Shown piece after piece: positions 18,721 through 64,000 of a DNA stretch of 64,000 nt (its first letter is position 1; each line of letters opens with the position of its first letter). The position numbers and the translations under genes are program-made. A model generated the notes under the pieces. It was not told the origin of the DNA. It was given only the letters and a program-made list of their open reading frames with translations, and did no database searches. Source of the DNA: Cloeon dipterum (taxonomy: Eukaryota; Arthropoda; Insecta; Ephemeroptera; Baetidae); NCBI RefSeq assembly GCF_949628265.1, contig NC_088787.1, forward strand, positions 29,626,501 to 29,690,500. The letters run 5' to 3'.

Positions 18721-19283
18721 GGCTAGAGAGTGTGGCCTGGCTGGAGGGTTCAATCAAAATGAGCCGTGGTGTTAAATAATTCGAGTCTAATATTGTTTAC
18801 CAGGTCAGACCTGATTTTGCTGTTTAGTCTGAAAGAATATGCGGTCAGCTAATGCTTTCGCGCTCAAGAATTAAAAGCGCAAACAAACAAACAGTGTGCT
18901 AAAATACGAACCTTTCGAAACTTTTTATATTTGACGGAGAGTGATAGGCTAAGGGAATCTTTCGACTCTCATTTAAATATTGTCAAAGGCGTAATTCACA
19001 ATCTAGTGGACTTCAAGCAACAAATTATGATTTTCGTGTCTGTAAATCAGTAATTCGACGTATTTGTTGAGAAAAACCAAACAATCCTAAAAATGTTATA
19101 AATGTGGCTAATTTTCTAACTATAAGATTTTGTAGCGTTTCATTTCATTTAAAAATGCCGTCTTATTGGAACGAGTGCAAGTATTGAAAGTGGTAATATA
19201 CATATTATGCCAGAGGGTGTTCGAGACATCGAAGATACGTTGATTATTCTAAATATGAAATTTCCTCTCATACATAGCAAGTT

Positions 19284-19356
19284 GTTTCCGTAGTGTAGTG
19301 GTTATCACGTGTGCTTCACACGCACAAGGTCCCCGGTTCGATCCCGGGCGGAAACA
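19284..19356 (+). tRNA. tRNA-Val (anticodon CAC)
   Basis: A 73-nt cloverleaf without intron. The acceptor stem GTTTCCG pairs with CGGAAAC, followed by discriminator A. The D arm is TAGTGTAGTGGTTATCA. The anticodon stem TGTGC/GCACA encloses loop TTCACAC, giving anticodon CAC. The T arm is CCCCGGTTCGATCCCGGG. The internal A box and B box (GGTTCGATCC) are intact. A run of six T, four bases past the discriminator, is a standard Pol III terminator. From memory, animal tRNA-Val(CAC) usually has a C-G where this stem has a G-C, which would be a compensatory change. Confidence 0.97.
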
Positions 19357-19406
19357 GATTTTTTAATCTATCTCTGGTGTGGTGACGAGATTAAAAAATC
19401 TGTTTC
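19351..19406. repeat. Perfect 19-bp inverted repeat at the tRNA-Val 3' end
   Basis: GAAACAGATTTTTTAATCT (19351-19369) is repeated exactly in inverted form at 19388-19406, with an 18-base spacer. The left arm includes the last five paired bases of the tRNA acceptor stem, the discriminator base and the T-run terminator. Confidence 0.9.
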
Positions 19407-20606: not shown

Positions 20607-23600
20607 ATGGAGGAAAACAGAATTCCTAAAAAAGCAGTCAATCTTCCCACTAAACAAGTGGAAAATATAGGTAGGTAGACAACATTAGACTATTTAGACG
20701 ATATTTTTAATATAAAACTATCGCAGAGGATAGCACACTCGAAAATGAAGCGAATCTGATCTCTCCAAATGAACCAAACACTTTGGGTTTCTGGAACAAC
20801 AATAAGGAGCAACCTGTAAAAAAGTCAGTTGAAAATAGCAATTATTTTTAATTTTAAAGGCAATATAATTTTTTAATTTTAGTGTCTGTGTGTTGGTGGT
20901 GCACTATGCATTTGCTGGACAGGGAGGAGACCGCTCAGAGGGAGATTCAAGAGATGTTCAAAATTTAAAGGAAACCTTTGCAGTAAACAGGAAATGCAAA
21001 TTCATCGCAATTTCACCTACCAAACTTGATTTTTACGAATTACTGGCTAACAAAGCATCGGACGGCGGCATTGGGAAATTTCAAGAATTGTTTCACCTTG
21101 AAGGTAACTTTTAATATTTTTTTTATTCTGTTAGTCTTACTCTAAAATAAATTTTTGTTGGTAAAGTTTACTCTCGATCGTTATATTATGCAACTCTTCG
21201 GTTTGATTGGAATTGATGAATAGGTGAAGCACCAGACGTGCTGATACTCTGCATTTTGAGCCATGGATTCAGCGGCGGAGTGATCTTGACTGAAAATTCC
21301 GAAAAAATCCATCTCAATGAAGTATTTGGCATAATGAAAACCAACTACTTGAAAGACAGTTTCAAACTGGTGTTTGTATCAGTAAGTTTATGTTCATTTG
21401 ATGTAAATTTATAAATAAAATTTTACTTTCTTAGGCTTGTCGAGGAGCAATTTTAGATATGGCTCTCAATGTCAAAAATGATCAAAAGGCGACTATACCT
21501 TCCACGGTTGAATTGACTACCCTGAACATGGAAAATGAAGAAAATGCGAGTGCCGTGGCTATAAACGCAGAGCCAAACGTGCAAAATTTTGTCATTGTAT
21601 ACTCTTCAGTAGAATGTTAGTAAGAAAAATTTATACACTCTATTTATTAATTTAAAATCGCCTTTACAGCTACTTTTTCCATAAGACTCAACATTGGGAC
21701 CTTACTCATTAGAGCTCTGTGCAAAATCCTAAACAAATTAGATGAAGATGTTGAGCTAGAAGTGCTCCTTAGCATGATAATGAATGATGTACACAGGAAG
21801 ACCATGAAATATGGGTTTGGAAGCACACCGCAAGTGCAGATATTCCCATTCGCCAAACTCACGATCAACAGGTTTTATCTTAATTATATTTTTTGGTTAA
21901 AAATAAAATAAAATATTTTAGATACGATCAAAACCAAAAGGAGTCCGGATTGAAAGACTTTATTTATGATTGGACGTCGATCAAAGGAATATACATGTCC
22001 AGGAGAGAGGCGCACATCTTTTGCAGACAAGATGGTAAACCAACTGCAATAGAGCTGGTTAAACTCGTGGAAAACAATCTCGGATTCGACGCAAGGCTCT
22101 ACAACGAGTATAAAGAGCTGAATAAAGCCGGTATTTCAGTAGAAAAAAGTCTTCCTGTTGGTATATTTTAAAGATTTAAAAAAAATTACAGTTCGGCATA
22201 ATTGCATTATCAACGATTCTGGATGCGTGATGATTTGCATTTTGGCGCCGCTTGCTATTAACGAGGAGACTAGCGAAATATCTGTGGTTGTTAACAAAGG
22301 ACGACAGGTGTCTGTACAGGATTTCCAGTACAATTTGATTCGAAACGATAACACCAAATGGGTGGGGAAGCCCAAAATCTGCATCTTTGCGAACTTTATC
22401 TCCTCTGACACCGACGCATTGGTAAGTAATTTAAATAAAATTTTGAGTCATTTTTAAAGCGTGCTTACCTTAAAAAATTACGTTAGGGAGAGGGAGACAC
22501 TCCTCTTCAATTTGCAAAGAGTGGCACTTATCACAGCGGATACCTCACTCTGATCTTGCCGAATCCAGGTATATACTGTGAAAGTTTGCGAAAACTAAAA
22601 TTTTATTGAGCTCATATTTTTCATAGATGCCATCGAGTTGATTATGAAAGAACTTGGAAACACGAATCTGCTGTCAGGAGGCGTCCACCTGCAGCAAGTA
22701 TTCATGAACATATTGCGCGATTCTAAGAAGCAGGAAGACTGCGCCATCGAGCCGCAGTACTGGAGCACGCTGCAATACCTGCTCGACTTTCCTGCGAATC
22801 AAATGCTCGTTGAACCAACAATTCAGTCAGAAAAAAGTGGGCTCACCTCGAAAATCTCTGGATTTCTTAAAAAGTATTTGAGAAAATTGGTGAAATTGAT
22901 CCGATGTGATTCAACAGGCTTCATGCCAAAAGAAGAAGAAGAAGAAGACGCAGATGTGGTTTGCCTCGTGTCTGCGTTGCCGGGAATGGGAAAGAGCTTG
23001 CTAACGTCGCACTTGGCTTACAAACTGCGACAGATGAACAACTCTATCACTGAAATCGACTTCTTGAAAGAGTCCGATTTTCTTGGCTCTATCACACTTG
23101 CCCGAGTGGAACCAGATGAGCTGGTGGAGCGTTTTAGCGAGTGGAAAGGCGCAAGGAAGAAATTCCAGCCAGGAAAAGAAATCTTCTTGCTGGACGGCTT
23201 CGATGGGATTGATGCAAGCGTGAAAAAGGATGTTTTACAACTGATAAGAAAAATAGCTGACGCAAAACTTCCTCTGTGGGTCACAACGAGACCTCACGAC
23301 GAGCAAATGATCATCGACTGCTTGAACGGTGTCGAAGTAGAAGTTGTGCGAATCGACGAGCTCCAGGCCGAAGACCAGAAACAGCTTTTAAAGTTAAAGC
23401 TCAGCTGCACTGATGAGAAACTCGATCACTATTTGAGCATAATCAGCGAGATGGGTGCAGAAGATTTGCTTAAAAACCCAAGCATCCTGTCGAAGGTCGC
23501 TGATTATTTCAGCGAAGGACCAGAAGACGTGAGACTAGTCGATTTGTGCCACAAAATTGTCAAGGCGATATTATTGGAGGATATGCAGAACCGAGAAGGA

Positions 23601-23939
23601 CTCGGTAGTAATCCTACAATCGTCACTCGGATAAAAAAACGATTATCACGGCTCAAAACGTGTGCCGTGAAACACTTTTTAGAAACGCCTTTGCTGCAGA
23701 ATGATGCGGAGGAAATTGCGAAGATCAACAGCCTTAGCATCGCGATGGTGTTGAACAACCGCATTTTTATTTCGTGCGACACTTTGGCCCAGTTCTTGCT
23801 TGCTTTGCACGTCACAAAAAAGGGCCTAGAAGAGGAAAGTGGCATTCCAGAAGAAGGAATAGAACGAATTCTGCAGTCTGGAAGTTTGGACCGTTGCAGG
23901 AAAATGATTTCCGAGTTGGAAATTCGTGGAGTGAAATAA
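20607..23939 (+). CDS. Caspase / pseudocaspase / NACHT-type ATPase fusion protein A
   Basis: Ten exons: 20607-20670, 20727-20823, 20883-21103, 21224-21381, 21435-21615, 21670-21871, 21922-22130, 22192-22421, 22487-22568 and 22627-23939. They close in frame to 918 residues. After a 53-residue N terminus without CARD or DED comes a caspase p20 region (VCVLVVHYAFAGQGG). It has the catalytic His at about 141 (CILSHGFSGG) and Cys at about 182 (VSACRGA), then a p10-like part (NIGTLLIRALCKIL). A second caspase-like unit follows (VMICILAPLAI ... KPKICIFANF ... GYLTLILPNP) in which both catalytic positions are lost. Next is a P-loop NTPase: Walker A ALPGMGKS (about 598-605), Walker B EIFLLDGFD (about 666-674) and sensor-like LWVTTRPH, as in NACHT/NB-ARC STAND ATPases. 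No WD40 or LRR follows. It probably acts in cytosolic sensing or death signalling; this is inference. AATAAA overlaps the stop codon. The donor at 22130 is the least certain. Confidence 0.88.
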
Positions 23940-26900
23940 ATAATTATAAATGTATAATGCGTTTTAATAGTTTCACATTAGTATTTAATGAAAAAGAGAT
24001 TAAATTGAACTTGATTGATTGGATTCCCCTTCAGACTAATATCAACGATAAACATTAAATATTATCTCCAGAGGTTGTGCTCACAATCAATGCACTTCGT
24101 TTCAACAACACCATTGGCTATCAAGTGCAGAAGTACTTATGTGAATAATATCTTAGTTCGAAATGATAAATGTGAATCTCGTAACGATGACGTCATCGTA
24201 ATTCTATTTGACTTAAATAGGTTAAAAATTTAAGCGATTTATATTCCCTAGCGCGTGAACTAGATTATTATTGTTCAAAGAGGTATTTGGCGCCGTTCAA
24301 CAAAAGCTACCCTGAGAAGTGTTTCGAACTGGCTGATTTAGTACTTTGAGTGATTCAGGATAATTGCATGCGAGCAGGAAACATTCCTTACTGCTGTCAG
24401 AAATCTGGACGAAGTGTTAACATGTGGGTCTACGAATTTACCACCCCTAAAAGACTACCTTAAGGTGCAAATATCTAAGCAATCCGCGAGCACCAAGCAA
24501 TTTGTACTTGGTCGAGCAGAAGGTCAAGCAACTCATGCCTGACACAGTAACACGAGCATTCGGCCGTCTGATCTTATTAACAAAACGTGCTAATTTATTT
24601 TGATGAACACCTCTCTGAATCAGAGCTGTTGATGATGATACAGCAGGGATTACCTGAAGAGTAAAGTGCAGCTGCGAGTGCGTCGCAAACGCTGCAAGAT
24701 CTGCAGCGCAACTTAGACGACATGTATTATGATACTTCTTCAGTTTCCGGCTAGCATGCACGCAATTTTTGAAATCTGTTTGTCGTTCTCCTGCTCAAGA
24801 GTAGAGCCAAAGTGGAAAAACCAAGCTAGTTTTAATAAAAGGTTTCGTAAAATTGGAAAGGCAAAGAGAAAATGACATAATAAGTGAGAATAACAAACAG
24901 TTATTATAAGCGCAGTCAATTAACATAAATTGTAACACACTTGCCAAACCAAAATGAGAAATTAAAAAATCGAGAAGAGATATTAATGAACTGAAAAAAA
25001 TGATTTTGTTCAGACAGTTTGAAAGAAAAATTCATATTTTTTCAAATCATTCCAGAATTTCAATACTTGCTCAATATATAAAATTCAGAACATTATAGGA
25101 GTTGATTTTATTGATTCTATAATTGATTTGTGTTGCTTGAGAATGCCTTCCTTACAGTAGGTGCGAAGTGAATTAAATTAATTTTGATAAGAATGACCGA
25201 AAAGACGAACTATAAAAAACGTCGTGATGTACAACAAGAGGTGGTATACAATTCATTGACATATTGCTTTTAATTATTGCCAGCAGCAAAAAATGCCATA
25301 TTTAGCTCACACATGGCCTCCTTTGAGTTTTAGGTGGGGGACTAACCAACTGTAAGAACCGCAACGGCAGTCTCAAGTGAATAAGCGACAACACAGCACC
25401 ATCGCTCTCGCGTTAAATTGAGAGGTAATTTATGCTAGACCTTTTTTACTAACAAGCTGCATCCAATTAATTTACAAAATAAGATGTCATAATGGAATTT
25501 GAAAAAAAAAATGAAATCGTGTTACTATGTACCCTTTTGTAGTGCAAAAAATAGTACCCTGCTTTTATCTCGAATGGAAGATTTTCAGAATTCTTTGTTA
25601 TTAGTTGATTATACCCGTGCGTGCATATAATTGATTAATAGCGAGCCAATTGCATGCAAATTATACGTATTAAAAGTTTATGGGTCAATTTACAGAATCA
25701 GAATATTTGACAATATTTTTCTGAAAGCCTAAAATCACATTTGCTAACAAGTTAGACTTTTGAAAGGGCCTCAGCTGCCCAAGGTCACGTTAAAAAACAA
25801 AGGCTCTAAAGATTCACGTTGTTTGTCTGCTGTTCTCTTAATAGAGTGAAACGACACGGGCACCGGGGCCAAGGTGGCACTACCAAAAGAAAAGAGGGGC
25901 GCGGTCTTGTCTTAAGGGAACAAAAAAGCCGGGAATCGCGATATTTACTGCAGGAGCAGGCCTCGACAACGGGCCAAAGTGGGACAACGAACTTAAAGAG
26001 GAAAACAGAGAGTTAAATGACACTGTCTATATAGGTAAGCGTATTGTCAGGTTGGGGGCCACAGGCCTGGCTGGCGCCGACGCCAAAGTTACAGGGTGTG
26101 AGGGGTAGCTGCGCTTGCGAGCATGAAGGTACATGGGGTACATGCAAAATATTATTGACGGAAGAGTTTGACACCCAACGAAAAAAAGCACATGCTGCTT
26201 CTCGTCGTTAACCTATATACAGATATAAATTCGATTGATGATTGACAAATAGAGATGAAATTATACAATATATTATATTATAGAACAGTATTAGTTAATA
26301 AGTATTAAGCATTATTTCCGCAATTGCTTATTTATTAAAGTAATTATTGCACAGCATAATAAAAAAATTTAAATAAATTCATAGTAAGAAAAGACAAACA
26401 ATACACTAAAAAATATCACGCTATTATCTTAAGATTTGCTGAAAGTAGGCGCAGAGAGGGATATTCTGATCATATTTATTTGAGTTTAGCAGAAAATTTT
26501 GAGGTTTGACCAAATGACCACCCGCTGGGAAAAATACGGTTGTAAAAAGTGCGAGTCGGCAGTAGCTGTGTGCAAATTGTTCACTAAGCGACTAGCGCTA
26601 AGCTATCCAAATTCCCTCTGGGGACGAGTAATTACGCGAACTCTTCATGAAATCAATAGAAATGTATTTTCAAGTAAAATTTTAGACTTCTCGTAAGATA
26701 AACAGTAATTTTTAAAACAAATAAAAACTTATTGTCGTGTAGTTAAGATTTTTTCAAAACTGAATAGAACTCTTTTATTATTTTGACAAATCCAAACCTA
26801 AACACGCACTAAATGATCAAATAAACTGCAAAAAATGCCATAAAAACACGCGTTTCATTTTGTAACGTGAGAATGAAGTGGATTTAATGGGATTACAACG

Positions 26901-27063
26901 TTCATTTTAGACCCGGCCATTTAAAGTAGATCACTTATTAGCAAAGACATTAATATATAGCATTTAAAAATTGTCATGGGGTAGGAAACACATTTTAAAA
27001 ATTGAATTATGTTAAGTGCATAAAACGGAAAAAAATATTATTGTTTTTTTTTTATTTTTGCAG
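23940..27063. other. Intergenic stretch between the two caspase-NACHT genes
   Basis: About 3.1 kb, mostly AT-rich. Scattered GC-richer blocks occur near 24290-24740, 25330-25430 and 25840-26120. The last contains a good donor (TATATAG|GTAAGC, exon end 26034) and could be a non-coding first exon of the second gene. It has an upstream ATG that stops after five codons. A 16-bp palindrome with a central TGACGTCA lies at 24184-24199. No coding exon with matching splice sites was found. Confidence 0.4.
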
Positions 27064-27078
27064 GACATCCATGGTAAA

Positions 27079-30000
27079 ATGGTGGATGCTTCAGATGGAG
27101 TTGTCACGAAGTTCAAGCCATTTGTTCCAAGTTAGTATACTCTCAATTGTTTTGAAAATCTTATAACTAACACGTTTCCCATGTTTTTGAAAAAGGTGAA
27201 AAAATCGTAGAGTACAGGTCCAACAATATAGGCTTCTGGGATGGAAATGGAAAAGAAGAAATCAAGTAAATGGCAGACAACGCCAAATAAATTTTTCGTA
27301 TTTTAACTCTGGTTATAAAAAAACTTTCAGGAAATTGAGTGTTTTGGTGGTCCACTACGGATTTGCAGGCGTTGAGAAACTTGATCGCCAGAAGGATAAT
27401 CAAGAGGATGTCAATAGTTTAAAGGACACTTTAAGTAAACACTGTCGAGAAGGTAACTACAGAGAAACTTCTGGTCGGAGGGATGAGGTCCTCGGCATCC
27501 TAGAAAATATTGCACAGGGTTGGCAGGATTAATTATTTAATGCTTTTAATCAATAATAATTTCCTTTTTCCACGTTTCTTTCAGACAAAGAAACACCAGA
27601 TTTGTTAGTGGTCTGTATTATGACACACGGAAAATGTAACGGACGCCTGCTAACACATCATCCACATCATGATGCAGACATCCAACAAGGAAACACTAGT
27701 GTCAAGAAACAAAGGTTTGAGGAAATCAGACTTTCCGAAATATATGACAAGCTTAAGGCAGAGAATCTTGAAAATACTGTTAAGCTGGTTTTGGTCCAGG
27801 TACGATTTTTGCGGATTTATTTAAGCTGCTTTGCACTAATTCAGCCTATATCTGTTCAGGCGTGTCGCGGTCTTATTGCTGAAGAAAACTGCTTTGAAAA
27901 TAAGCCAAACGTACAATTTGTAAACGAAAAAATCAAATTTAGCAAAACACTTGGAAGAAAGGACAGCGAATTAAACAATACAAACGCAACAAGGGTGACA
28001 ACTGAGCTGAACTGTAAAAATTTCGTTGTCATGCTATCATGCGTTGAAGGTAATTTAATGAATATTTGTACTTGTTATTCTCTTCCAGAGCAATAAAAAA
28101 CGATTTGCATCAAATCAAGATTTGCGAAAGATACTTCAAGTTTGAAAATGGCCTGGTGGAGTTTGTTGATAAAATAAGAGAGCAGCTTTTCTTCCTTAAG
28201 TTATCCCACTGCTCGACGCCCCGACTGTTGTAGTTGGAGTTCCTCCGCAGTAACTCTAACACAACAACGAAGAATTAACATCAATTTTTCGTGTGTTGTA
28301 TTAGAGTTTCTACAGATGTAATCTCGCCATATATAACATTAGTATTTAATTGAACAATAATTAATTGTTTATTTTCTTTTAGGAACCGTGTCTTTTCGAA
28401 AAGATGGAGAGCCAGAATCGGGGAGCTGGCTTATTCAAACTTTTTGTAGCTGCCTCAATACATTAGGAAGAAATATGGAATTGGAAGAATTTTTGGCGTG
28501 GATTAGTTTTACAATGAAAACAGAATTGATAGAAAAGGAAAATTACGGATCCTCCCCAGAAATCAAATTGTTTCCGCACAGGAAACTGACATTTTCCAGG
28601 TAATTTAATGAAAGATAAAGCATAGTTCAGATACATTTGTGCATCTATTACTGGCTGTCCAATGTCAGAGATTTCAAAAGGTGGTTAAATTAGAGACTTG
28701 AAATGCACAAATTAGCTCAACGGCCGGGCTGGCACACCGGCGCTGACTCGCCACTTGCTATGGTTTCCTTTCCAGCGGCTTAAGGGACAAATGAATGGCG
28801 TTTCAATCGGTTCAGTGAGACAATCAAATATAAATAAAAATGCCACATTGGGCCCAAGCTCTTCTTCTGCAGCCACTTGGGCCCCATGTTATCCGCTCGG
28901 CGATGTTATTTTGGGACCTGGAGAGCTCATAGACTTAATTTTCCACACAGAGTAGAGCATTTCAGTTATTTTTATTTGTTTTTAATTGAAAGATTAAAAC
29001 TGTGTGTCTTTATTTAATGTTTTAAAAGATTAATTTGGGTTATGTTTTCTCTTCTTTTTAAGGAGCGATTGCGCCAATCTAAGTTGCCCACCAGAATCTT
29101 TTTTCTATGACTGGAGGTCAAAATCTGACAAGAAGATAACTACAAGGAAAGCTCATTTTTTTGCTGCTGATGGAAAGGAGGATTGTGTCGCACTGTTGAT
29201 GAAAGCTATGAAGGAGAGATTCGATTTTCTGTGTATGTTTCATGAGACGGTCGCAGACTTGGAATCAGCAGGTTCAAACGTCATAAAATACTTTATTAAT
29301 TTGAAGCTTATCCACATTTATTTTCTCCAGTAAAAAATGGGGATGAACTGGATGGATGTATTCTTATCTGCGTTGTGGGCAATTTGACCACAGAAACAAT
29401 TGAAGGGAAAAATGAAATTTGCATGACGATGAAGGGAAGTTCGATGCCCCTAAAGCATATTATCTCCAAAACAATTTTTCCAAAAACGGAAGACTGGATT
29501 GGCAAGCCAAAGCTCGCTGTTTTCCTTAACAATGAGAATTCGAAGGGAGTCACCAAAGCTTCTCCGAAATACCCTCCATGCGAAACGGTATTTTTACAAA
29601 TTTAAATGAGTAAAAATTTAAATTGATTCATGTACGTGTTTACAGCCTTTCACTTCTAACGAAGGTTCAAGAAGTGGTACCATTCACGAAGGTCTACTGT
29701 CACTGATACTCCCACAAAGAGGTATAGAATGCTTGTCTTTTATAATTGTACCAAATTTTAATAATTGAATTTATTTTTGCAGATTCAGTTCAGCTCTTTT
29801 TAAATACGTTGACCAAATTCGCAGCCTCAAACAATACCAGCTCAACAGTTCAAGAGCTGTTTGTTGCAATGCTGCAATATGCAAAGCCTTATGATCATAT
29901 TAGCCCAGTCATCATAAGCACACTTAGGGAAAGGCTAAAAATTAATTTCCCTTCCACTATTCCCTATAACTTTTTCAAAAAGACCTATGCGGGGACAAAG

Positions 30001-31020
30001 GATAAAATTGTGATTCAAGAAGAGCTCGTTGAGTGGTTCAGCTCAATTTTTTGCTGTCTGAAAAGCGCGAAAAAGCAATCCACCTATGACTGTCCAAGTG
30101 AGCCAAACGAGAAACGTCCGAAAATTGAGACAATTTCAAGGGACCCAAAGATGGCCACTGTTTGGCTTGTGTCATCTCCTGCAAGCACAGGAAAATCTTA
30201 CTTGGCTAATTATTTGGCTAGTACTCGGGTACAGAGTAATGGTGGTGTAATTAAAATTGACCTACGTGGAGCTTATCAATTTTTGGATAAATTTGATTGG
30301 CAACATCAAAATTACGAAACGCTGATAAACGAATATCTGAAGCATGCAGGACAAAATAAATCTCTCGGCGATAACGATATAGTAATTCTAGACTCTTTTG
30401 AAGCGGTAAAAGAAAATCTGCACGAGCATTTTTTCAAAATGATCCAAGATATGGCAGAAAATGAGGTTTTCCTATTGATTACTGCCAGGTCCGAGCTGCA
30501 GGAGAAGTTTCAAAACGCAATCACTGCTCTGACCGTAATTCAAATAGGAGATCTTACTGAGTCAGAGCAATTTGAGTTTCTTTCGCAACAGCTGAAGCCG
30601 AGTGAAAGCGAAAGTGATATTCGTTTTGCCTTAACGGAAATTCGGAAGGCCTACGGCGAAGAATTTACCAGAAAAGTAGGAACTCTCGAAAAACTTGCGA
30701 AGTTTCCTGAATTTGCGAGAGTAAAACCCATTAACATTGACGCAATCAGCAAATATCTTGTTGAGACAACTGTTGAATCTGGCTTGGTTAACAACGGAGT
30801 GATCAGAGGTTTCAATTTTTTTGACAAATGTTTTAATACGATAATGTCCGACCTAAAAAAATGTGCCAATGCTTACATCACGGGTAGCAACGTGACTGAT
30901 ATTCAATCTGATATTGCAGAACTGAATAGACTCGATATTATGGTTATTAACAAGGAAAACCTCGTTCAGCCTGTTAATAAGCAAATTGCATTGTACCTTG
31001 CGAAGCAGCCTAGCAAATAA
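27079..31020 (+). CDS. Caspase / pseudocaspase / NACHT-type ATPase fusion protein B
   Basis: Ten coding exons: 27079-27130, 27196-27265, 27331-27518, 27585-27799, 27860-28049, 28383-28599, 29063-29271, 29331-29587, 29646-29721 and 29783-31020, 903 residues. The start is the first in-frame ATG after an acceptor at 27064; an upstream coding exon cannot be excluded. The first caspase domain is canonical: LSVLVVHYGFAG, His about 118 (VVCIMTHGKCNG), Cys about 177 in VQACRGL, and GSWLIQTFC in the p10 part. The second caspase-like unit (CILICVVGNL ... KPKLAVFLNN ... LLSLILPQRD) lacks both catalytic residues. The ATPase has Walker A SSPASTGKS (about 622-630), Walker B DIVILDSFEA (about 690-699) and a sensor-like FLLITARSE. 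Every intron phase equals that of the neighbouring paralogue. Between domains lies a basic KRPK stretch. A SINE-like repeat sits in the 28600-29062 intron. Confidence 0.88.
28711..28930 (+). repeat. SINE-like repeat, copy 1 (intronic)
   Basis: It begins with a tRNA-like A box (TAGCTCAACGG) and has a B-box-like GTTTCAATCGG about 90 bases on, followed by a GC-rich body (GGGCCCAAGC ... ATGTTATCCGCTCGGCGATG). It shares this order with the repeat at 31155-31440, while the flanking DNA is unrelated. It lies in the intron between 28599 and 29063. The ends are approximate. Confidence 0.6.
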
Positions 31021-32800: not shown

Positions 32801-33690
32801 TTACGTAGAGGGTGCAGGGGTGCTGCCGGAGATGGCGCTCTGGATCTGCGCCTGGAAGTACTTGGCGAGCTCGACAGCCTGGTCGACGGCCTGCTTGGTG
32901 GCCTGCTGCACCTCAGCCCTGATGGGCGCCGTCTCGGTCTCGACGTTCTTCGCGATCTTGGAGGCTTCTTCAACGACGGTGGAGACGGCGGTCTGCACCT
33001 TGGTGGACAGCTCGGCGGTGGCCTCCTGGGCCTGCTGGGCGTTCTGCTCGCCAATCAGGCCGCGGAGGGTCGAGTTGAGCCGCTCGGCGGTGTCCTTCAG
33101 CGCCTGGTTATCCTGAGCGGCGTTGTTCAGGTTGTCCACCAAGTTTTGCAGGTTCGTGGTGAAGATCGCGGTCTGGTTGCTCAGGGTAGCTCCCACCTAA
33201 AAACAGGTAAATTATGTTGTTAATGTTCCAATTATTTGTATTTGACAGAAATTAAATATAAAACTGTGCCACAAAAGAAAAAATTAAAAAAATCGACTTA
33301 GGCTGGAGCATTTAAAATTTTCAAACAAAATTTTTTGCAAATATTGAAGTGTAAAAATAATTTTGAAATACTCGTAATAGTCGCAACGTAGAGAAATATT
33401 TCATATTCAAACTTTAATTTTCTTAAAATGGCTCGTAATTACCTTGGCGAAAGCAGCCTTCTGCTCATCTCCAGGGGTGAAGAGCGCGGAAACCTGGTCA
33501 GTGAAGGTCTTGACATTTTCCTGGGCCGTTTTCACAAGCTCCTCGAGCGAAGGAAACTCGGGTGCTTCCCGCCTGACAAGGGCAGCCTGTGGTTTTCAAA
33601 AATTGCGTCTTTAACACGCATTTTGATCTTGATTTTTTTACTGACCTGCGAGATGGCGAAGAGAGCAACGAGCACGACGGCGGTCTTCAT
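32801..33690 (-). CDS. Apolipophorin-III
   Basis: Three exons on the minus strand (33690-33646, 33586-33443, 33196-32801), all phase 0, give 194 residues. Exon 1 is the signal peptide (MKTAVVLVALFAISQ). The mature protein is Cys-free, rich in Ala, Gln, Glu and Lys, and made of long amphipathic helices (EELVKTAQENVKTFTDQV; NLQNLVDNLNNAAQDNQ; ELSTKVQTAVSTVVEEASK; AVDQAVELAKYFQAQI). This is the five-helix exchangeable apolipoprotein of insect haemolymph, which binds lipophorin during lipid loading and also has immune roles in the family. Length fits the usual 180-190 residues. A TATA-like TTAATATATG element lies about 40 bases upstream on the minus strand. An AATAAA overlaps the stop codon, with a second at 32771-32766. 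Confidence 0.95.
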
Positions 33691-35159: not shown

Positions 35160-36521
35160 TCAGCATGGCGGACGTTTTCCACAGCTCTTACAAGAGCCAC
35201 TGCAGGGTCCGCACTTGGTGCCCTTTCCCGGACAGCAGCAGTAATAATAGCAGCACTTTTTGTCAGGGCAAGTAGTTTTGGTGGTCTGCAATAGAAAAAT
35301 TATTACAATTAAACGACATGCCCTGTAAAATAAAATATAAAATGAGCGGCGAGACTTACAGTTGGTTCCCACGTAGTCGTCGATTGAGTGGAGGTTGTTG
35401 GACATGTTGTGGTTGTCGTTGGGGTTGGGGTGGTGGTCGTTGAGGTTGTCGTCGTAGTCGTTGGGGTGGTTGTCGTTGTCGTTGGGGTGGTAGTCGTTGA
35501 GGTTGTTGTGGTTGTCGTTGGGGTGGTTGTGGTTGTCGTTTGGCATGTTGTGGTTGTCGTTGGGGTTGGAGTGGTGGTCGTTGGGGTTGTGGTGGTTGTT
35601 GTTGGGGTGGTGGTGGTTGTTGTTGGGGTGGTAGTCGTTGTTGTTGTGGTGGTTGTGGTTGGGGTTGTGGTGGTAGTGGTTGGGGTTGTTGTAGTTGTAG
35701 TTGGGGTTGGGGTGGTAGTCGTTGTCGTTGTGGTGGTTGTGGTTGGGGTTGTGGTGGTAGTGGTTGGGGTTGTTGTAGTTGTAGTTGGGGTTGGGGTGGT
35801 AGTCGTTGTCGTTGTGGTGGTTGTGGTTGGGGTTGTGGTGGTAGTGGTTGGGGTGGTTGTAGTTGGAGTGGTTGTGCTTGTAGTTGGGGTTGGGGTGGTA
35901 GTGGTTGTCATTTCGGTGGTTGTGGTTGGGGTGGTGGTCGTTGGAGTGGTTGTCGTTTCGGTGATTGGGCTTGTGCTTGTGGTTGGCGTGGTCGTGCTTG
36001 TGGTTGAGTTGGTATCCGTGTTATTAAAATCAATTGTCGTGTATTTAGGATTCATGGTGGTCACGGAAAAGCATGTTGGACAAGTTGGACAAGTCTGATT
36101 ACATGGACATGACGTGGTAGTATTTATTTGTTGTTGTTCGGGTTCATCATAGTCCTTCATCTGAATTTCAAATTTTTGGTTTTGGCCTGGTTGTTTTTCA
36201 TCCATTTGCTTCTTCTGCAATTCCAAAATTTGGTTTTGGCTGCGCAGCATATCCGCCCTCCATCCATGCAACCTCGTCCTGGGAGGTTTAAAATAGCCAG
36301 CGAACAGACTGTAGAATCGAGTTTAAAAGAGATATTAAATAAAAGTACAATGCAACTTACTTAGGAATGAAGGTGCGCGTTGGCGGAGCTACTCGTTGGC
36401 CTAAAGTGTCCGAATCGTGCTGCAGGCCTCCTCCATTGGGGGATCTTCCCAGATCAAGCGCAAAGGCTTGAGCTTTGAGGGAGGTGGCGAACAGGAACAA
36501 CACTAGAGCGTTGAAGAACAT
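35160..36521 (-). CDS. Threonine-rich mucin-like secreted protein
   Basis: Three exons (36521-36361, 36278-35360, 35285-35160) close in frame to 401 residues. A signal peptide (MFFNALVLFLFATSLKAQA) is followed by a charged coiled-coil-like stretch (LRSQNQILELQKKQMDEKQ). Next come a Cys-rich turn (SCPCNQTCPTCPTC) and a long Thr/Pro domain built of TTTTTTP units. This domain carries at least two full 28-residue (84-bp) repeats. The C terminus is a compact Cys-rich tail (KKCCYYYCCCPGKG ... CSGSCKSCGKRPPC). Dense Thr runs suggest O-glycosylation, as in mucins, glue or peritrophic proteins; which of these is not known. A TATAAAT element at 36557-36551 lies only about 30 bases before the ATG, implying a very short leader. 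Repeat length may vary between alleles. Confidence 0.82.
35640..35840 (-). repeat. 84-bp coding tandem repeat in the mucin-like gene
   Basis: On the plus strand, TGGTGGTTGTGGTTGGGGTTG recurs at about 35647, 35731 and 35815, exactly 84 bases apart, with near-identical sequence between. In the protein the unit is 28 residues of Thr with spaced Pro. The wider GT/GG-rich tract runs from about 35400 to 36010. Confidence 0.85.
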
Positions 36522-44600: not shown

Positions 44601-45801
44601 ATCAAATACTGGGTCGAGAGGCACAAACACATCCTTAGGTAAGTAGAAAAATAATAACAAAAAACTCCAACGAGATAAAAGGTTAACCAAAGTCATAAGA
44701 ATCTAAATTTCATTAATTGAAAGCTACTTCTGCAAAAGTGACCAAGATACGCCCTGAATAGTAAAGATTGCCTTCATTATAGCGCTTAAGAAACGAGAAT
44801 AAAAATTAAAAATTCAAGCACCTACAGTAATTTTATTTGACTGCATTTTGATTGAAGCTCAAACATAAGCAAATTCATATTTTATTTAAATTCGCGATAT
44901 CACTCGCAGCAGCAGCAACAACAGGCAAGTTTTTTCAGTGATATTCGAGTGCCGATTAAACTGGATTAATATCCGAAATGAGCCAGCGGAGCTTTACGAC
45001 TGTTCAATCTTGAGTTTTTTTTAATAAAAATAGTACATTTTCTATCTGTTTTTGTAGATACATTGAATCAATAGGTGACTCTTATGGTATGGCTCTGCTT
45101 TTGCACATGCTTACCAGCACCGTCACGCTCACACTCCTCTCCTACGAGGCCACAAAGGTAAAATACACACTACTAAAATTAACTAACGATGATAAATGGA
45201 GAAATAGACTTGATTCCTCTTTTTCAATCCTGGAATTAAAAAATGCATCAATCTTGCAGATAACTGGGATCAATTTGCACGCATTCACAGTGATCGGTTA
45301 CCTGAGCTACACTCTTGCCCAGGTCTTTCTGTTTTGCCTGTTCGGTAATCGTCTAATTGAAGAGGTAGGTCCTTCAAACTCTCAAAATACTTTTTTCCTC
45401 AGGCAAGTTACCAAAAAATTAAATTTTGATTTAATAAGTAATTTTTCCTCACAACTGATTAGGTTTTTTCATCTTATGTGCCGATTGGTTGCTTGGAAAT
45501 TTTTTGTTCACTTGATGTCGGTTTGCAGAGCGTTTCCGTGATGCATGCGGCGTACAGTTGTCCTTGGTACAATGGCTCTGAAGAAGCGAAAACCTTCGTG
45601 CAAATCGTGTGCCAGCAATGCCAACGGCCGCTCTCCGTTTCAGGAGCAAAGTTCTTCACCGTTTCCCTCGACTTGTTCGCTTCGGTACAAAATAAAAATT
45701 CAAGTTTGTGCCACGAAAAAATTAAACATGAAATCTTCAATGACTCACAGGTGCTCGGAGCCGTTGTGACTTACTTCATGGTTCTCATTCAACTCAACTA
45801 G
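41700..45801 (+). CDS. Orco: Odorant receptor co-receptor (Orco)
   Basis: Nine coding exons: 41700-41702, 42134-42391, 43125-43556, 44037-44223, 44407-44638, 45058-45157, 45260-45364, 45529-45684 and 45751-45801, 507 residues. Orco pairs with odorant receptors to form ligand-gated cation channels in olfactory dendrites. The C-terminal half is near-diagnostic: [14 protein letters not shown] (putative calmodulin-binding, about 357), [40 protein letters not shown], and [19 protein letters not shown]. It ends in [20 protein letters not shown]. The second extracellular loop is longer than usual and carries NDT and NLT glycosylation sites, making the protein about 30 residues longer than typical Orco. 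The start codon is the last three bases of exon 1 (ATG|GTGAGA), and intron 2 uses a GC donor (AAG|GCAAGT). AATAAA lies at 45868-45873. Confidence 0.96.
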
Positions 45802-53310: not shown

Positions 53311-56300
53311 TTACGTCCACCAAGTTGCAAATATTGCGCAAATGAGGACTACAGGTGAAAAAAGTGCAACAACTGCACTGCTGTTCACTCTGCTTTCAAA
53401 GAAATCTAAAACGGTTTTTTTGTTGTCTTTTAGCCAAGCAATGTTGTCTTCAACCACAGCGATTGCTGCACGAACGGCTGCCTTAATGTTATCTGGCTCG
53501 TTTGGGTTGTTTGTTAAGAAATCTTCAAGCTGAAAAGTAAAACAAATTACATCGGCTAATTTTCTTAATATAAAAATCAAACCTTCTTTTTCTGCTCGTC
53601 GGTATTTAATTTTGGTGCAATGGCACCAAATAGTCTAGTCACAGATCCAAATGCTTGATATCTAATGAAAAAAATTCAGGCACGGTAAATCGTATAAATT
53701 ACACCCTTGATTTGATCTTACGTGACTTTAATTTCGGCGAATTTGGTGACGAGAAATTCGAGGGCAACATCTACACCCTCCGGGTTTCTGAGGACGCCGA
53801 CAAACGCGTCTCTAGTGTCTTGTGATCGGATCAATGAATCAACCTCTTTGATAGTTTCGTTCAAGACCCTGTAAAAAGCAATTTTTGTTATTATGATACA
53901 TGAAAAATAATGACCTATGTAACCTCTTCAGGAGATCATCAGACGGGGCGCAACCGAGAGCGGTCAAAATCGTGCTCATTTCTGAAGGCATGTGTTGAGC
54001 CTTTGTGTATCTCTCAAACAAAAATTCGAAGTCCTCCGCATTTTGCATTCCGTGGCAGTAAACAACACTCCTCAAGTCAGGGTCGATTCTTTTGGAGCAT
54101 TTTATTGCGTTGTCTTAATCATGTATGATTATAATGTCCTCTCCACTTACGGGTTATAGAAATCTGGCGAGCTGCGTACTTTCCACTCTTGGAATAGATC
54201 TCGTGCGGTACTCTTGCATGTGGAGTATCCTAAATTACAAGACCAATAAAGAGCAAGGTTCCTTCGAAGTCTAGTTACGTGATCATCACTGGTCGAGTAA
54301 GTGAACCCATTAACGTGTTTAAAAAGTGGACCAAGTTTCATTTTGACGTATTCCTGTTGAAGCAATTATATGAATTTCTTTTTAGCAAATGCATCCTCTT
54401 ATTTTAAAAGTTAAACAAAGTATGTACATCGATTCTATTTATGGTTTGGAAATGGTGTAAAAAATATTTCAAACTTAATCACCGTGTAAAACTTTCTGCT
54501 GGCTTCTTCTTCATTAAACAGGCGATCACCAAGAAAACTGAACGCCTTAATAGCAGTGTACCATGGTAAATATGCCGTCTCCTTTTCTAGGTACTCAGTG
54601 GTCGATAAGGCGGTTTCATATCCCGAGTAATTGCCCTTTGCAAGAGCCATCGAATCATCAATCAATTGGGCGCGATTGATTTCCGTAATTTTGTTCCATC
54701 CATCGTCACTATTCAGAGCAGCCAAAATCAATTTCCAGTTGCTCTCGTCGTAATTAACGCGGTAATATCCTATAACATTAAGTATATAGATTAAGATATC
54801 GCGATTTTAGCGTTTTTATAACTATATGTACCAATTTGTTTAGGATTAACAATCAGCCACTCATTTGCTTTAAGGTTTTGCACATTTGTCAGTGTCACAA
54901 TACCATTAGGGGGAGCCCAACTCCTGATAGTAAACGATGAAAAGTCACCAGAATTTTGTTCAGTCACCAGAGTGATTGGAACATGCCACTGGCCAGGAGA
55001 CGGAGGACTTTTTTTAGCGGAGAAGAATCTTTGCTGATATTAAAATATGGATTTAAACAGAAGATTTAAAAAAAAATAGAAAGTGCGACACCTGTTCAAA
55101 ATTAATTTCATTTTTCTCATAATTTCTCGTCACGGTGATCAGCGGGTAACCAGGATTTTCTGTCCATGAGTCCATAACAGTTTTAAGGGAGACTTCAGGC
55201 GGCAAAATATTGTCCGGCATAGTCGATTCGAGAGCAGTCCAAAGATGATCTTTTGTCACAGAACCATATGCACTATAGGCAAGGAGTTAAAATTTAATGA
55301 TCAACCCCCCATAACTTGACACATACTTATCTGTGAGATATTTTTTAATTCCATCTCTGAAAGGAATCTCGCCTATCATGTTGATCAACAGGCGAACAAT
55401 TGCAGCACCTTGTAATATTTTTGTAAATTAACCACGATTCCTTGAATTAAGTTCTAAAGTAAAAAAAACCTTTGTTGTAGGCAATATTATCAAAAACAGC
55501 CGTTGCCGACGCAGGATTAGTGACCGTGGAAGTCATAGGACGTGTGGTATCCCTAGAGTCACTTTCCAATACGGGCTGGAGTTCATCCATGATAAACGCG
55601 TTCTCCAATTGGAAAGAGTTTTCTACCTGCTCGCTTAAATTAGAGGAAAATGTTCTACAGAATGGGAACACTTGCTGTTGCGGCTGTGAAGTATTCAAAG
55701 TAGGTGGCGAATCCTTCGTTTAGCCAGATTTCACTCCACCACTCGGGAGTAACAAGATTTCCAAACCATTGGTGGGCCAATTCATGGGTTACCACAGTTA
55801 CGATTCGTTGTTTGTTGGCCGAGGTTGAGAAAAATTTATCATGCAGCAGATTCACCTCTCTAAATTTGTAGAGTTGAAAAGTAAATTTGGTTAATATGTT
55901 GACTGATTTACCTGTAAGTAATAAGACCCCAGTTTTCCATTGCCCCGGCTGCAAAGTCAGGAAGGGCAATCTGGTCGACTTTCATTTGGGAATCATATGG
56001 GACATCAGTGAAGTTCTCGAGCTTTTCCAGGATCAAAGGGGACACGTTCAACGCGTACGAAGTTGAGCTATCAATGAACTCGCGACGAGCTAGGATCTTT
56101 TAAACAAAAAATATTAGTTGAAACGGGAAAGAATAAACTTTGCATACACCAAATTTGTCGTTAGTTGAATGGCCGATGTAGCCAAAATCGTGCACCGCAA
56201 ATGCGACGAGGTAGGTTGACATCACAACCGATTCTTCAAAATCAACCCAGACCCAGTCTTTGTGGAATTCGTCAACCCTGTTAATCGATTTGATTTAATT

Positions 56301-62460: not shown

Positions 62461-63121
62461 TAGGATATTTTCTTACTGAAATGCAACTGTTTGTCTGTCA
62501 CTTAGCAGAAAAAGTTCCGACACAAAATTTTAGCTCTGCTTATTTTGCAAACCTCATTTGCGTGAACAAAGGAATCTGTGGAAATTTTCGATTGCAATTT
62601 GCATAATAACTTACGTATTTGAACATGAAAAACGAATTAAATATTTTGTATGCTTTAAATCATATGCACAATCAGGAGCAAGGAAAATTGATCAAATAGC
62701 CTGCAAAATATTTTTCCTTGATTATCAGAAATTTAATTGAACTCGCTCCCTAATGGAAATGTCAATTATTTTTTTTTACCAAAATATATATATATGCAGT
62801 TTGAACCGGTTTTCCCCTAAAGCTCTCAATCATTTACATATCGCGTACCCAGCACACACTTTTTTATCATAACATCAGTCTGTAGTTATCTATTACTCTT
62901 TATTTGGTTACGAAATCGATTTTTTTCTGATTTTACTGTTATGAGTGGCCATGTATTGCAAACTGCGATCTTAATCTACCATTCTGATCTCTCTAGCAAC
63001 AAGGCTAATAATCAATTCATATCGTGATAGAATCGTACCAAAAACATGTTAAATAATTATTTTACATGTTGTTAAATGGAAGAAATAGGATAATTGGTAT
63101 TTAATTTTTGCAGGGTACAAA

Positions 63122-64000
63122 ATGTGGCTGACCCGAATTTTCGCGGTGGCAGTCTTAGCCTTTGCACTGGCAAATGGAACTCCTCTGTGGCTGCGTCCTG
63201 AGCTGCCACTGGATGCAAAGCTCAGCTCGAACCCTCGAGCTTTGGCAGACTACCAGCTGCCTACATCAATTATTCCTTCTCATTATGAAATTGAACTCAT
63301 TCCATTTTTGAATGACAATGTCCCCGAAGGACAGACAGAATTTACTTTCATTGGAAAAGTCATAATTACAGTCACCTGTAACGAAGATGACATCAGTTCT
63401 ATTAAAATGCACGCAAAAGACATGACAATATCTGGCGACGTAACAGTTGAAGCAGATGATGGAACTGGCGAGGTCACAGTATTAGGCTACGTAGAGGAAC
63501 CGACCGACGACAAAGACTTCTTAATAATTAACCTTGCTGCTCCTCTGGAGCAAAAAGATTACAAAATCACCATAAATTACCTCGGAAATTTGAATGGAGA
63601 TTTAGATGGTTTCTACAGAAGTTCTTACGTAGAAGACGGAGTTACAAAGTAATTTTTGAAGAGAAAATTCCTCTGGTTTCTTTAATATAGTTATTTTAGG
63701 TGGATGGCTGTCACTCAGTTTGAATCAACCGGTGCTCGGAGAGCATTTCCTTCCTTCGACGAACCAGGAATGAAGGCGACATTTAAGTTGAAAATTGCCA
63801 AGTCCGCTGATTACAAAGTTCTTGCAAACATGCCATTGGACACCGATGATGAACCTGTCAGGTTGCCTAACAACAAAATACGAAAATAACTGTTTTAAAA
63901 ATATATTTTTCAGTGGATTTGATGGCATGACTTGGGCTGATTTTGCCAATACAGAACAAAGAATGTCAACCTACTTAGTAGCTTTCTCAGTCAACAAATT
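63122..64000 (+). CDS. Aminopeptidase N paralogue, 5' part (cut by window end)
   Basis: Exons 63122-63648, 63700-63861 and 63914 to the window end code the N-terminal beta domain. The signal peptide is [20 protein letters not shown], followed by [20 protein letters not shown] and [18 protein letters not shown]. Next come [20 protein letters not shown] and [11 protein letters not shown], all standard M1 landmarks. Each has a direct counterpart in the minus-strand aminopeptidase ([49 protein letters not shown]), and the intron positions seen agree (phase 2 before KW, phase 2 before the third exon). The GAMEN and zinc motifs would lie beyond the window. The two genes point away from each other. 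Confidence 0.92.

Follow-up and report, generated by a model that had tools for sequence, protein, structure and literature searches.

The insect apoptosome, built from Dark/Apaf-1 with Dronc, employs a STAND switch to activate a caspase; it relies on NB-ARC, WD40 and CARD domains and consists of separate chains. Mayfly chains of the kind described below would join such functions in one protein. Excerpts of published work place a protease on the receptor chain itself in bacteria and fungi (PMC3501461, PMC8195603, PMC12881547), as in bacterial metacaspase-NACHT-WD40 proteins (PMC3501461) and in gasdermin-linked fungal NLRs that carry a protease such as CHAT at the N terminus (PMC12881547). For animals, excerpted text reports LRR-caspase and TNFR-caspase hybrids in amphioxus (PMC2575513), and a caspase domain is mentioned in a figure legend on sponge NLRs (PMC12909245), so caspase-bearing NLR chains may exist in other animals. 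NACHT and NLR genes are reported in the consulted excerpts to be missing from Drosophila (PMC2575513, PMC11508797); passages of a metazoan survey describe arthropod NLRs as having no N-terminal effector domain, and gasdermin E as not found in arthropods (PMC11508797).

The terms caspase, NACHT and ankyrin are absent from the main text of the Cloeon genome paper (PMC7250882). The original prediction knew of no described insect protein with the order caspase, pseudocaspase and NACHT ATPase. In our literature search, no insect caspase-NACHT protein was named in titles and abstract openings with little coverage of subscription journals or bioRxiv. An apparent mention of NACHT in a lacewing paper proved to be nothing but an author's name.

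Domain composition of Genes A and B

We analyzed a window of 64 000 nucleotides (C2:29626501-29690500) from the Cloeon dipterum genome, which was searched as 190 Mb in 10 contigs. Two neighboring genes, Genes A and B, were each modeled with ten exons (Table 1). Gene A was 99% identical to the C. dipterum RefSeq entry LOC135935381. The RefSeq protein P0001, together with P0002 of Neocloeon triangulifer in a spliced alignment, placed the end of Gene A exon 7 at 22130, and an alternative end at 22160 was discarded on the same evidence. A repeat suspected by eye in intron 6 of Gene B was not confirmed by a check. The two proteins were 26% identical over most of their length (E = 2e-68), with identical exon phases in the same order, and a single Neocloeon protein covered 92% of Gene A. 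The last exon of both genes runs from the pseudocaspase interior into the ATPase, so that a split into two genes there must fall within an exon. The shared exon phases and the single Neocloeon protein thus argue, at the sequence level, for the predicted placement of caspase, dead caspase and NACHT ATPase on one chain as opposed to separate transcripts.

Table 1. Features of the window (positions counted from its first nucleotide)
Feature	Position	Strand	Description or basis
tRNA-Val, anticodon CAC	19283-19357	+	directly upstream of Gene A
Gene A (LOC135935381)	20607-23939	+	ten exons, 918 aa; gene model with RefSeq and Neocloeon proteins
Gene A exons 1-5	20607-20670, 20727-20823, 20883-21103, 21224-21381, 21435-21615	+	
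Gene A exons 6-10	21670-21871, 21922-22130, 22192-22421, 22487-22568, 22627-23939	+	
Gene A catalytic His141 codon (LSHG)	21262-21264	+	invariant His column of the alignment
Gene A catalytic Cys182 codon (SACRG)	21438-21440	+	Cys column of the alignment (42/43)
Gene A pseudocaspase-coding stretch	21938-22820	+	residues about 314-546; span counts introns
Gene A exon 10	22627-23939	+	pseudocaspase end (early in exon), linker, NACHT ATPase, winged-helix region
Gene A Walker A (GMGKS, residues 601-605)	22983-22997	+	alignment
Gene B	27079-31020	+	ten exons, 903 aa; presumed start codon; model and alignment with Gene A
Gene B exons 1-5	27079-27130, 27196-27265, 27331-27518, 27585-27799, 27860-28049	+	
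Gene B exons 6-10	28383-28599, 29063-29271, 29331-29587, 29646-29721, 29783-31020	+	
Gene B catalytic His118 codon (MTHG)	27626-27628	+	sequence
Gene B catalytic Cys177 codon (QACRG)	27863-27865	+	sequence
Gene B exon 10	29783-31020	+	pseudocaspase end and divergent NACHT-type ATPase (STGKS, VILDSFE); alignment with Gene A
Apolipophorin-III exon (Pfam PF07464)	32801-33196	-	behind Gene B
Thr/Pro-rich repetitive long open frames	35160-36322	-	mucin-like by eye
Weak odorant receptor match (7tm_6)	45014-45541	+	E = 1.7e-4, under its cut-off
M1 aminopeptidase gene piece	54435-55981	-	
M1 aminopeptidase gene piece	63089-63652	+	

The first unit matched the Pfam C14 profile above the cut-off in both genes (Gene A, 2e-14; Gene B, 3.5e-18) and carries both the catalytic His and Cys, as expected of the full caspase originally proposed. 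Conservation was evaluated in an alignment of 43 family proteins (A3), from which truncated and partial models were omitted, several of those being without catalytic motifs. The His was present in all 43 and the Cys in 42, where P0036 has Ser in its place, and the motif glycine was lost in one protein. At the S1-pocket positions, which were assigned from caspase-3 and where two arginines would go with Asp specificity, the first Arg was found in 36 proteins, with three A-type rows carrying Arg one column off, and the second in 34, being missing in the other nine. Since the Q of QACxG is substituted in most family members, caspase activity and specificity are assumed here. Both motifs were recognized in 28 of the 29 modeled loci (20/20 in the first set and 8/9 in the second). 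The family locus L039 (C4:8631944-8636044), without a recognized catalytic His or Cys motif, is possibly a degenerate or all-dead copy.

A direct profile-profile comparison of the two units by hhalign gave no significant match. The caspase nature of the second unit was settled by a profile search against solved structures (E = 1.9e-10), in which the best 60 of 136 matches were all caspases, and by the predicted fold of this unit alone, for which the 50 matches listed were all caspases or c-FLIP. When the whole predicted model was compared by VIA-align, caspases and NLRC4 filled the list of matches. The catalytic pair is absent, with no His in columns 396-398 and no Cys in columns 444-449 of the 43 aligned proteins, and the second caspase-like unit is thus as devoid of catalytic residues as had been predicted. 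The unit keeps p10 and a dimer-interface strand in the predicted model.

For the third part, a NACHT-type STAND ATPase was anticipated in both genes, and STAND/NACHT profile matches were found in each, falling under the Pfam cut-off (Gene B, E = 0.0097). Pfam scans of Genes A and B revealed no ankyrin repeats and no CARD, PYD, Death or DED domain. In these scans and in those of the last exons of seven family members, no LRR was among the listed matches, no WD40 was found, and NB-ARC appeared once, in L019, below its cut-off. NACHT was above the cut-off in all seven of these exons and ankyrin repeats were found in six, and ankyrin domains were listed for 60 of the 68 mayfly proteins retrieved with one ankyrin-type member. 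Elsewhere in the window, the M1 aminopeptidase pieces on both strands suggest more than one such gene.

A large receptor-like family in mayflies

The NACHT search of the Cloeon genome yielded 101 matches, including 46 on C4 and 34 on C2, and many of them lie within long open frames, 900 to 2700 codons in length and free of stops. At least 58 had a same-strand caspase and/or pseudocaspase match within 6 kb upstream (caspase part in 50, pseudocaspase part in 38), which is a lower bound as part of 196 and 13 of 36 matches were entered, with redundant exons and free caspase clusters omitted. A non-random set of 20 loci, those ranked 2-21 among the NACHT matches, carried both parts with the same exon series in every case and added five to the count. 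Gene A added one, and upstream matches were also found for 9 of 10 loci sampled from the other 37, taken as every fourth of those still unproven with all 10 scored. In total, 73 of the 101 NACHT matches had an upstream caspase and/or pseudocaspase match and one had none within 4 kb, the other 27 being outside the count. The Gene A search pointed to six places beyond the NACHT list (C5:21741194, C3:8346140, C4:20442348, C3:8614571, C3:8620248 and C4:29998680). Clusters of caspase matches without a nearby listed NACHT, at C5:27147932-27160033 and C4:1033374-1039141, are probably ordinary free caspases. The two adjacent genes of the original prediction are therefore both real but do not form an isolated pair; judged by sequence, they are an outlying, ankyrin-less side branch of a receptor-like family with about 100 genes.

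With one ankyrin-type member as the query, 69 proteins were retrieved, of which 54 were from Cloeon (two assemblies, so that some may be one gene counted twice), 14 were from Neocloeon and one was a JGI-source ankyrin protein. The profile search returned five mayfly proteins, one amphibian NLR and one NACHT protein for which no caspase is listed; it missed most known members, including its own query rows P0033, P0042, P0049, P0061 and P0068, and as it scored only the 7991 top word-sharing candidates, its silence on other insects says little. P0072 and P0073 were discarded as candidate distant relatives, since the precomputed Pfam lists mark the former as an ankyrin protein and the latter as a NACHT protein and contain no caspase for either. 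By these searches of limited reach, the caspase-pseudocaspase-NACHT order was found only in mayflies, and no bacterial or fungal caspase-NACHT protein was among the matches listed, the searches reaching relatives that share short words.

A midpoint-rooted tree (rooted for drawing) was built from 52 rows, comprising 41 of the 43 aligned proteins, 10 loci from the set of 20, and Gene B, with some genes represented twice. Gene A paired with P0002 (100/97), and Gene B joined this pair on a long branch (100/99). Neocloeon had a second A-type protein, P0003, which is truncated and was outside the tree, and no Neocloeon counterpart of Gene B was identified. All 36 Cloeon ankyrin-lineage rows, among them the RefSeq rows P0033, P0042 and P0049 without a listed ankyrin, were set apart together by a single branch (100/96), with the Neocloeon rows in separate groups.

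We then compared dN/dS in eight loci picked as close paralogs (28 pairs). The ratio was lowest in the pseudocaspase (0.32) and highest in the ankyrin part (0.74), with 0.42 in NACHT and 0.44 in the caspase, where pairs with L028 reached 0.55-0.82. In sliding windows from seven of these loci, pseudo-p10 windows were among the lowest (0.12-0.14, equaled by one P-loop window), and seven ankyrin-part windows exceeded 1 as point values at low pS (0.036-0.085). Gene conversion among the paralogs is likely.

Proposed mechanism and alternative explanations

We consider it probable that Genes A and B represent the ankyrin-less branch of NLR-like intracellular receptors with their own protease, in which NACHT oligomerization leads to caspase activation with the pseudocaspase as partner. 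At rest, the chain would be monomeric in an ADP state and its caspase an inactive zymogen. A ligand would shift the NACHT to the ATP state, the input for Genes A and B perhaps being another receptor or a host partner, and ATP-state chains would oligomerize so that the tethered caspase units meet. The pseudocaspase would dimerize with the caspase and thereby activate it, in the way c-FLIP-L activates caspase-8, and the active caspase would cleave downstream proteins, with cell death or immune signaling as the outcome and no need for a separate adaptor. Genes A and B may act as helpers, or they may detect conserved self signals, given that both are without the variable ankyrin part and that Cloeon and Neocloeon alike retain A-type genes. 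More tentatively, mayflies, or at least Baetidae, could have evolved a large and fast-turning set of self-contained inflammasome-like receptors, every chain combining a sensor, an ATP switch, a protease and the dead partner that activates it, with A and B as helpers or the founding type. The family may act in immunity or cell death, an immune role being suggested by its pattern of number, turnover and diversification.

The same proteins could instead serve development or tissue clearance, responding to internal triggers of cell death in the subimago moult or in adult gut degeneration. Mayfly adults lose gut function, and Genes A and B, kept without a variable ankyrin part while A-type genes are retained in two genera, would suit such a role; however, the Cloeon ankyrin lineage forms a group of its own and the ankyrin part changes faster, which would be unusual for a developmental pathway, and we regard this explanation as unlikely. 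It also seems quite improbable that the family consists of signaling scaffolds whose caspase units are mainly modules for oligomerization or self-cleavage with no outside substrates. The mostly substituted Q of QACxG, the nine proteins without the second S1 Arg, the Ser of P0036 and the one lost motif glycine are in line with scaffolds, but the catalytic residues are otherwise retained (His 43/43, Cys 42/43), as are both motifs in 28 of 29 modeled loci.

Decaying remnants of a formerly active family are very improbable given the long open frames without stops and, among the eight close paralogs, a dN/dS clearly below 1 for three of the four parts, even if degenerate copies such as L039, without a recognized catalytic pair, may be included. 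We give hardly any credence to an annotation artefact in which separate neighboring genes were fused by the original reading and by gene prediction. The chains are known here from genes alone, but their order and exon phases are common to A and B, one Neocloeon protein matches, the same exon series recurs in 20 of 20 loci, and a single exon covers the pseudocaspase end and NACHT.

Comparison with known systems

On the reading of Genes A and B as receptors with their own protease, NLRC4 and other animal NLRs are the natural comparison. Those receptors combine NACHT, a winged helix and LRRs, whereas no LRR was listed for the scanned mayfly sequences and the caspase is on the same chain; Pfam also gave no CARD, PYD or Death domain in Genes A and B, and ankyrin repeats would take the place of a sensor in their relatives. 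Caspase-8 and c-FLIP-L are separate proteins, whereas the mayfly caspase and pseudocaspase precede NACHT on one chain, and the tandem DED of c-FLIP is absent from Genes A and B by Pfam. Dark/Apaf-1 is similar in leading from a STAND switch to a caspase, but the mayfly chain has NACHT, no WD40 and a single-chain layout.

Bacterial metacaspase-NACHT-WD40 proteins likewise combine a caspase-fold protease, NACHT and repeats, although the protease is of metacaspase type, the repeats are WD40 and no pseudocaspase is named in the excerpted text (PMC3501461). Fungal NLRs, as excerpted, use the protease as the receptor's own signaling module, and protease domains are also fused to repeats, ankyrin among them (PMC12881547); CHAT has a separase-like fold and, unlike in the mayfly chains, no pseudocaspase is described in those passages (PMC12881547). 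The amphioxus hybrids, like the mayfly proteins, are animal receptors with a direct caspase domain, for which the excerpts describe neither NACHT nor a pseudocaspase (PMC2575513).

About 100 caspase-pseudocaspase-NACHT genes in a winged insect, the majority of them with ankyrin repeats, would contradict the excerpted statement that arthropod NLRs have no N-terminal effector (PMC11508797), and the receptor-borne protease design of bacteria and fungi would also have arisen in an animal. The mayfly chain would be a natural single-chain pair of caspase and pseudocaspase in which activation by a dead partner is directly testable. Under the more tentative reading of a set of self-contained inflammasome-like receptors, one mayfly protein would do the jobs of the vertebrate sensor, adaptor, caspase and regulator.
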